Shown here piece after piece: positions 43,053-44,565 of a stretch of 64,000 nucleotides of DNA. Position 1 is the stretch's first letter; each line of letters opens with the position of its first letter. Location: NCBI RefSeq assembly GCF_009659535.1, contig NZ_VJZZ01000003.1:186001-250000 (forward strand). The letters are read 5' to 3'. Source of the DNA: Aggregicoccus sp. 17bor-14 (lineage in GTDB: Bacteria > Myxococcota > Myxococcia > Myxococcales > Myxococcaceae). The notes beneath the pieces are model-generated. The model saw only the letters and a list, made by a program, of their open reading frames with translations. It was not told the origin of the DNA and did no database searches. Made by a program: the position numbers and the translations under genes.

Positions 43053-43898
43053 ATGCATTCGTCAGCGTCCGGCGCCGCCTCGGTGACAGTCGGCGGCGCA
43101 GCCCGTCACTGCACCCAGTGCGAGGCCGAGCTCCACGGCTCCTACTGCGCGCAGTGCGGCCTCAAGCGCTTCGAGCGGCACGACCTCTCGCTCGAGCACT
43201 ACGCGCACGAGGCCTTCCACGAGATCTTCCACGTGGACGGGCGGCTGTGGCGCACCCTGCGGCTGCTGTTCACGCGGCCCGGTCAGCTCACGCAGGAGGC
43301 GGTGTCGGGGCGCCGCGCGCTGTCGGTCACGCCGATGCGGCTCTTCCTGCTCACCAGCGCCCTGTTCTTCTTCGTCGGGCACACCAGCTACTTCACGCTG
43401 GACACCATCGTCCGCTACGAGCCGGGCTCGACGCCCGAGGCCTCGATGGCGAAGGCAGAAGGGTTCTACGCCTGGAAGGGCAAGAAGCTCGGCCAGCCGC
43501 CGGAGCTCGTGAAGGAGCACCTCGAGGCGCAGTTCGCGAGCCGCAACAAGCTCGCGCAGATCGCGACCGTGGGGCTCTTCGTGCTGCTGCTCGCCGGGCT
43601 CTACCTGGGAAGCGGGCACTACTTCGTCGAGCACCTCATCTTCGGGCTGCACGTCTACAGCTTCCGCTTCATCTTCAGCACGCTCACAGAGCCCCTGATC
43701 GTGAAGCTGAAGGTGCCATGGCAGGTGAGCCTTCCCATCGGCACGCTCGTGATCGCGAGCTATCTGTTTCTCGCGCTGCGGCGCGTGTATGGCGGCCACC
43801 CGCTGGCGACCGCGCTGCGCACGCTGGTGCTGGTCGCTGCGTTCCAGGTGTTCACCTTCTTCGCCGTCTACCTCTCCATCACGAGCGTGATGCACTGA
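43053..43898 (+). CDS. DUF3667-type membrane protein with N-terminal zinc ribbon
   Basis: 281 residues from ATG 43053. The start is a zinc-ribbon motif, CTQCEAELHGSYCAQCGLK (two CxxC pairs), followed by LSLEHYAHEAFHEIFHVDGRLWRTLRLLFTRPG, which is diagnostic of the DUF3667 family. About four or five transmembrane helices follow (RLFLLTSALFFFVGH, LFVLLLAGLYLG, IGTLVIASYLFLALR, LVLVAAFQVFTFFAVYL). The function of the family is not known. It is convergent with nothing and is followed by 0.67 kb of non-coding sequence. Confidence 0.85.
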   Translation: MHSSASGAASVTVGGAARHCTQCEAELHGSYCAQCGLKRFERHDLSLEHYAHEAFHEIFHVDGRLWRTLRLLFTRPGQLTQEAVSGRRALSVTPMRLFLLTSALFFFVGHTSYFTLDTIVRYEPGSTPEASMAKAEGFYAWKGKKLGQPPELVKEHLEAQFASRNKLAQIATVGLFVLLLAGLYLGSGHYFVEHLIFGLHVYSFRFIFSTLTEPLIVKLKVPWQVSLPIGTLVIASYLFLALRRVYGGHPLATALRTLVLVAAFQVFTFFAVYLSITSVMH

Positions 43899-44565
43899 GA
43901 CGGGCGAGCGCGCTCGGAGGAACCTCGCGTCGTGACGGGTGCGCCTCGTGGATGCCGAGCGCGCTTGGGCGCCGGCCTGCGCGACGCTCCGGGGGTGCGG
44001 AGCCGTCGAACGAGCGACTCTCGCTGCGCCCAGGGGTGTTACGGCTTCTCAGCCAAGGGCTCCCGCACCCTGAGGCAGGACTCTCTCTCGCCTGCGAGGT
44101 ACCTCGCCTGCCACCTCCGCGCGCACCGAGGCCGCACCAGAATCTACATGCACCCTGGTGCGGACCTCATCCCGGAGGAGGGGCCTCGGGGCCCGTAAGA
44201 CGTACCGGAAAAGCCCCGACATCTCAGAACAGGTGCGCGCGACTCCGCGGCCGGAAGGGTGCCCCTCCCGGGCGCAGGTCGGTGTGGTGCTGAATACGAA
44301 CCTCGGGACTTTTGAAATCTCCCGAGGTTCGTACACAGGGGCGCGCACGACCGAGCCCGACACCCCTCTGGTGCATCCCCGGAGCGCCTCGAAGGGCAGC
44401 GCCCTCTCGCGCTCGGCGCATCCGAGGGGAGCCCGTCCCGTCGTGGCTTCCCCCTGAGCCGGTGCGTGAAGGGCACAGTGCTGCGGATCCACTCCTCTGC
44501 CGGGGACAGCTGCGCCCCATTGGCTCAGGGCCAACTCGAGCGAGCGACACAGAGCGACTCCGCGC
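43899..44565. other. Non-coding stretch rich in inverted repeats
   Basis: 667 bases with no convincing gene: the short frames on both strands have no homology features or ribosome sites. At least three strong dyads are present: 43907-43917 with 43955-43965 (11 bp, loop 37), 44132-44140 with 44155-44163 (9 bp, loop 14) and 44295-44308 with 44320-44333 (14 bp, loop 11). A possible longer pairing joins CGAGGCC (44127-44133) with GGCCTCG (44182-44188). The composition and the GC-poor loop of the third hairpin differ from neighbouring genes. Confidence 0.6.
44295..44333. repeat. Perfect 14-bp inverted repeat
   Basis: TACGAACCTCGGGA (44295-44308) and its exact complement TCCCGAGGTTCGTA (44320-44333) flank an 11-base loop, CTTTTGAAATC. 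It lies in the middle of the non-coding stretch, 230 bp from the nearest gene end. It could be a transcription terminator, a protein-binding dyad, an RNA hairpin or the remnant of a mobile element; nothing nearby decides which. Confidence 0.75.

Follow-up and report, generated by a model that had tools for sequence, protein, structure and literature searches.

A gene-free stretch of Aggregicoccus sp. 17bor-14 as a member of a dispersed, palindrome-rich intergenic repeat family

REPs are short, a few tens of bp, and REP/BIME-type repeats are marked by a GTAG motif and a REP-associated tyrosine transposase. REP/BIME are described as extragenic palindromic repeats that often lie between convergent genes and are targets of site-selective insertion sequences (Tobes and Pareja, 2006; PMC1525189). 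The same source reports that all nine copies of ISRm22, a member of the IS4 family, are located in REPs of Sinorhizobium meliloti (PMC1525189).

The window, which is the whole 64,000-nucleotide stretch of DNA that was analysed, belongs to the 6.92 Mb, 38-contig genome of Aggregicoccus sp. 17bor-14. Positions 43899-44565 span the gap between the stop codons of two convergent genes, a DUF3667 gene on the + strand upstream (stop codon 43896-43898) and an ORF on the - strand downstream (stop codon 44566-44568). Both stop codons abut this region, so that its coordinates are exact, and the preliminary description was correct in calling it gene-free. A repeat element of subfamily F1, to which no strand is assigned, occupies 43899-44497. 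It is defined by blastn to sister copies and by arm-model matches at both ends. Its left end (43899) abuts the stop codon of the upstream gene, and its right end is the limit of blastn similarity to sister copies (query 593-599, equal to 44491-44497).

The preliminary description proposed a search for second copies elsewhere in the genome, and these were found in number, including about 40 related loci that it had overlooked. With the stretch as query, the source genome gave 111 matches at E up to 1. A sequence-only arm model built from 53 arms gave 84 arm matches, which clustered into 61 loci. Forty of these belong to F1 and 21 to a related subfamily F2, assigned by the absence (F1) or presence (F2) of the F2 palindrome near the arm. 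This AT-rich palindrome, CGTAAAATAGGATTTTAC, is found at 24 places (for example C5:162079 and C12:15155), is exact at 22 of them and is absent from 57 other genomes of the family. Both arms are present in inverted order at 22 of the 40 F1 loci. Eight further F1 loci are contig-end halves of four elements split by an insertion sequence, and the 40 loci correspond to about 36 elements. One arm only is seen at 18 of the 40 at the threshold used, two of them marginal (E about 1e-3 and 7e-3). The copies are extragenic, with no predicted gene inside the 41 loci examined. Judged from its sequence, the stretch belongs to a dispersed, non-coding, palindrome-rich intergenic repeat family. A description of this family was not found in the literature searched, where coverage of subscription journals is thin.

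The preliminary description also overlooked two 87-nt arms at 43912-43998 and 44373-44459, which are 70% complementary and frame most of the stretch. The arm model places an outer arm of type T2, about 105 nt long, at 43896-44000 on the + strand (C3:229896-230000, E 1.3e-14), and an outer arm of type T1, inverted relative to T2, at 44371-44477 on the - strand (C3:230371-230477, E 8.6e-20). A complete element consists of one T2 arm and one T1 arm, inverted around a modular interior. Over 20 elements, identity at variable columns is 0.54 and 0.49 within the two arm types, compared to 0.45 across types. The two arms of an element do not resemble each other more than shuffled partners do (0.415 vs 0.449, 20 elements), and no compensatory pair is found. 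For these reasons the arms look like two DNA-level ends rather than one hairpin kept by selection. A single long functional hairpin was rejected, since arms within one element are not mutually matched. The arms resemble the terminal inverted repeats of MITEs; their identity is 0.55 to 0.76 over 84 columns in 20 elements.

The interior is built from palindromic modules whose combinations vary from locus to locus, a mosaic build as in REP/BIME. It includes a small palindrome with a 21-mer and the M4 palindrome; sister copies carry the 20-mer palindromes M1 and M2. The window copy is 89% identical to its best sister copy, over query 274-593 only. Elements in the family are composites of 0.3-1 kb, and their ends are not sharp. 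The longest element (L011) measures 1043 bp between arms 1505 and 2547 and has a possible small reading frame inside.

Three strong inverted repeats had been described in the stretch, and only the 14-bp one exceeds chance. It is perfect, with arms within 44295-44333 and an 11-nt loop. In 300 dinucleotide shuffles the longest arm was 12 and was reached once, and the dyad folded as DNA has a z of -6.7. It forms the core of module M4, a long AT-centred palindrome at 44290-44338 without an assigned strand, whose exact pattern is found at 14 places in the source genome. M4 is often symmetric through its loop, and the loop is symmetric in most copies. The 9-bp dyad is real (44132-44140 and 44155-44163, with a 14-nt loop; no strand assigned), but it is not unusual by itself, as an arm of 9 or longer appeared in 37 of the 300 shuffles. 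No perfect local 11-bp hairpin with a loop of up to 20 nt is present in the stretch. The 11-nt pairs that are present are 91% complementary and separated by 38 to 408 nt, so that the claimed 11-bp dyad does not stand as a local hairpin.

The best conserved part of the interior is a nearly invariant 21-mer at 44213-44233 on the + strand, the first base of which departs from the consensus in the window copy. Its 16-mer core is found at 20 places in the genome exactly and at 26 with up to two mismatches. From these 26 we aligned 24 rows, leaving out an unrelated sequence (L074) and one 80-nt duplicate. The mean column identity of the 21-mer is 0.984, compared to 0.739 before it and 0.774 behind it, and the 21-mer is exact in 18 of the 24 rows. 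It is absent from several F1 copies. Directly 5' of it is a small imperfect palindrome (44193-44207, no strand assigned; alignment A2 columns 8-22). Among its five pairs, two are invariant in the 24 rows and two have changes on both sides along with many unpaired rows; at one pair, 13 of the 24 rows are unpaired. The small stem and a second helix together have 14 doubly changed cells, compared to 8.3 in shuffles. The evidence on pairing is therefore mixed, with an excess of doubly changed pairs, yet many unpaired rows. The 21-mer may have a function. It resists drift and is one unusual detail of an otherwise ordinary new repeat family.

Sister elements are also hit by an insertion sequence. 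At least eight contig ends end in it inside an F1 element, four per end of the insertion sequence (contigs C29-C38 read N). All eight recognized junctions are located within the near-palindromic 20-mer TGGACGGAACnnTTCGTCCA, module M1. The 10-bp target duplications match across the two sides in sets of one, one and two. Four sister elements carry the insertion sequence, and the genome has its readable C-terminus at these four places and no others. In sister copies, the M1 palindrome serves as the landing site for this insertion sequence with its 10-bp duplication. The 20-mer was not seen in the window copy. The inserted sequence probably belongs to the IS4 family, judging from a homologue in a relative. 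Its 38 readable C-terminal residues have no Pfam match; the homologue is 55% identical over 33 residues and matches the IS4 family at E 8.7e-84. Separately, the ends of contigs C4, C12, C13, C16, C17, C18, C21, C26 and C27 carry other insertion sequences or repeats that start within a second repeat, CCCTCTCCC...GGGAGAGGG, and several different ones seem to share this target.

The elements prefer convergent intergenic gaps. The flanking genes at 41 loci were scored as 18 convergent, 17 tandem and 6 divergent. The gene finder missed a small gene to the right of the window copy, and correction by hand gives 19, 16 and 6, respectively. With the corrected count, the excess of 19 convergent over 6 divergent has a two-sided binomial p of 0.015. 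The baseline within the window is 6 convergent and 5 divergent among 44 gene pairs. Many copies start within a few bases of a stop codon.

Matches in other genomes are sparse. When the stretch itself was the DNA query, 16 of 39 relatives gave matches within an E cutoff of 0.01; every one of these is short, and the lowest E is 5.9e-5. The arm model matches 11 of 57 other genomes of the family within the same cutoff of 0.01, with no E below 5.1e-4. Across 144 other genomes of the order it gives a single match at E up to 1e-4 (2.3e-6), and no clear copy was found in them apart from this one arm relic. The relic, a partial arm in a genome from a different genus of the family (L277/L278, G131:C1, about 415960), lies within or directly after a truncated reading frame that may resemble the C-terminus of an IS91-type transposase. 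Among 145 genomes, the M4 pattern is found at its 14 places in the source genome and at one unrelated place elsewhere. A 20-mer of the core and M4 are both without an exact match in a collection of 84,980 species, which possibly does not include the source genome. The 16-mer core has seven single matches in viral contigs. The upstream neighbour gene was matched in only 3 of 57 other genomes of the family. It is too poorly conserved for the empty-site approach to be productive, and no empty site was shown through it among these genomes.

A second genus of the family has, in four of its genomes, a 20-bp palindrome, TGGAnnGAAnnTTCnnTCCA, of the same class as the one in the sister elements. One of the four has partly tandem arrays. 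In genome G022 it is found at 30 places, with a tandem array with similar spacers at L245 (G022:C1:8937000-8942500). These genomes differ from the family described here in their tandem arrangement, and none of the four has a strong arm match.

We consider it fairly probable that the stretch is a copy of a dispersed, mosaic, palindromic DNA-level repeat, REP/BIME- or MITE-like, that is spread in trans. The arms, and perhaps the 21-mer, would be recognized by an enzyme supplied in trans, which would allow copies to spread. Recombination between copies would reshuffle the modules, and tolerance of insertions in the gaps behind stop codons may explain why copies persist. The elements may be mobile. 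In 22 elements the longest word shared by the flanks is 6.2 within elements and 6.5 between different elements, so that no target-site duplication was detected, in a test that is weak as the ends are uncertain. We did not classify the element as a MITE because of this result. No autonomous copy bearing a transposase was found in the loci read; one could lie in contigs C29-C38, which read N. The preliminary description suggested the scar of a mobile element. A mobile-element origin agrees with the dispersed repeat, but the locus belongs to a whole repeat family rather than being a scar.

Alternatively, a host DNA-binding protein could recognize the copies, which would be kept for a function in chromosome organisation, supercoiling control or recombination, with the 21-mer and M4 as candidate sites. 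The suggestion of binding sites in the preliminary description is retained because the 21-mer is nearly invariant and the loop of the 14-bp dyad is symmetric in most copies. The F2 palindrome, exact at 22 of 24 places, points in the same direction. However, the 144 other genomes of the order yielded neither M4 nor strong arm matches, and the 21-mer is not needed for every copy, as it is missing from several F1 copies. We regard this alternative as unlikely. A bolder proposal is that the copies represent a new composite class of intergenic element in which a sequence-specific trans-acting factor, such as a recombinase, an organiser protein or a guide RNA, actively keeps the 21-mer. This is in our judgment unlikely. 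If true, the copies would constitute a genome-wide set of addressable sites, also exploited by insertion sequences.

The copies might instead function in RNA, as structured small RNAs or as mRNA 3' structures such as terminators or stabilisers. The stretch folds strongly on the two strands (z -7.6 and -8.5), copies are often located directly behind stop codons, and the doubly changed cells in the small stem and second helix are in excess. The strong fold carries little weight, since any long inverted repeat would be expected to fold in this way. In addition, the window has no Rfam match at gathering score, RNAalifold of 53 arms and 24 cores revealed no compensatory pair changes, the two arms of an element resemble each other less than shuffled partners do, and no terminator-like T-run hairpin or sigma-70-like promoter is present. 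The absence of Rfam matches, covariation and a T-run led us to reject a small RNA or terminator, and with no arm coevolution in 20 elements the structured small RNA of the preliminary description was not supported. RNA-level functions in general appear quite improbable.

It is highly improbable that the copies are decayed relics of one autonomous transposon with the arms as its ends. The two distinct, consistently inverted end types are consistent with it, as is the arm-like relic in the truncated frame with its possible likeness to a transposase C-terminus. However, no transposase lies between the arms in the loci read, and the interiors are shared modules, not gene remnants. A plasmid or phage origin was rejected, as the stretch has no match in plasmids or phages, and so was a protein-coding role, as the single open frame of several elements is likely by chance at high G+C.

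The finding is a new repeat family of a real but ordinary kind. An unexplained gap has become part of a countable repeat family that may shape genome plasticity, as an insertion sequence lands there rather than in genes. The factor by which repeats of this kind are kept or mobilised is seldom known, and the drift-resistant 21-mer could serve as a concrete bait for it. Bacterial MITEs, as described in a review (PMC10969869), are similarly short, without their own transposase, with inverted ends and in many copies. They differ from the elements here, for which no target-site duplication, sharp ends or parent insertion sequence were found. Compared to REPs, the units here are composites of 0.3-1 kb that combine inverted arms of 105 nt with several palindromes unrelated to one another. 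Like the REP/BIME covered by Tobes and Pareja (PMC1525189), they are extragenic palindromic repeats, often in convergent gaps, that are also struck by a site-selective insertion sequence. The ISRm22 insertions in S. meliloti REPs (PMC1525189) parallel the probable IS4-family insertions in the F1 elements. By analogy, the repeat appears to work like the known REP/BIME landing pads.
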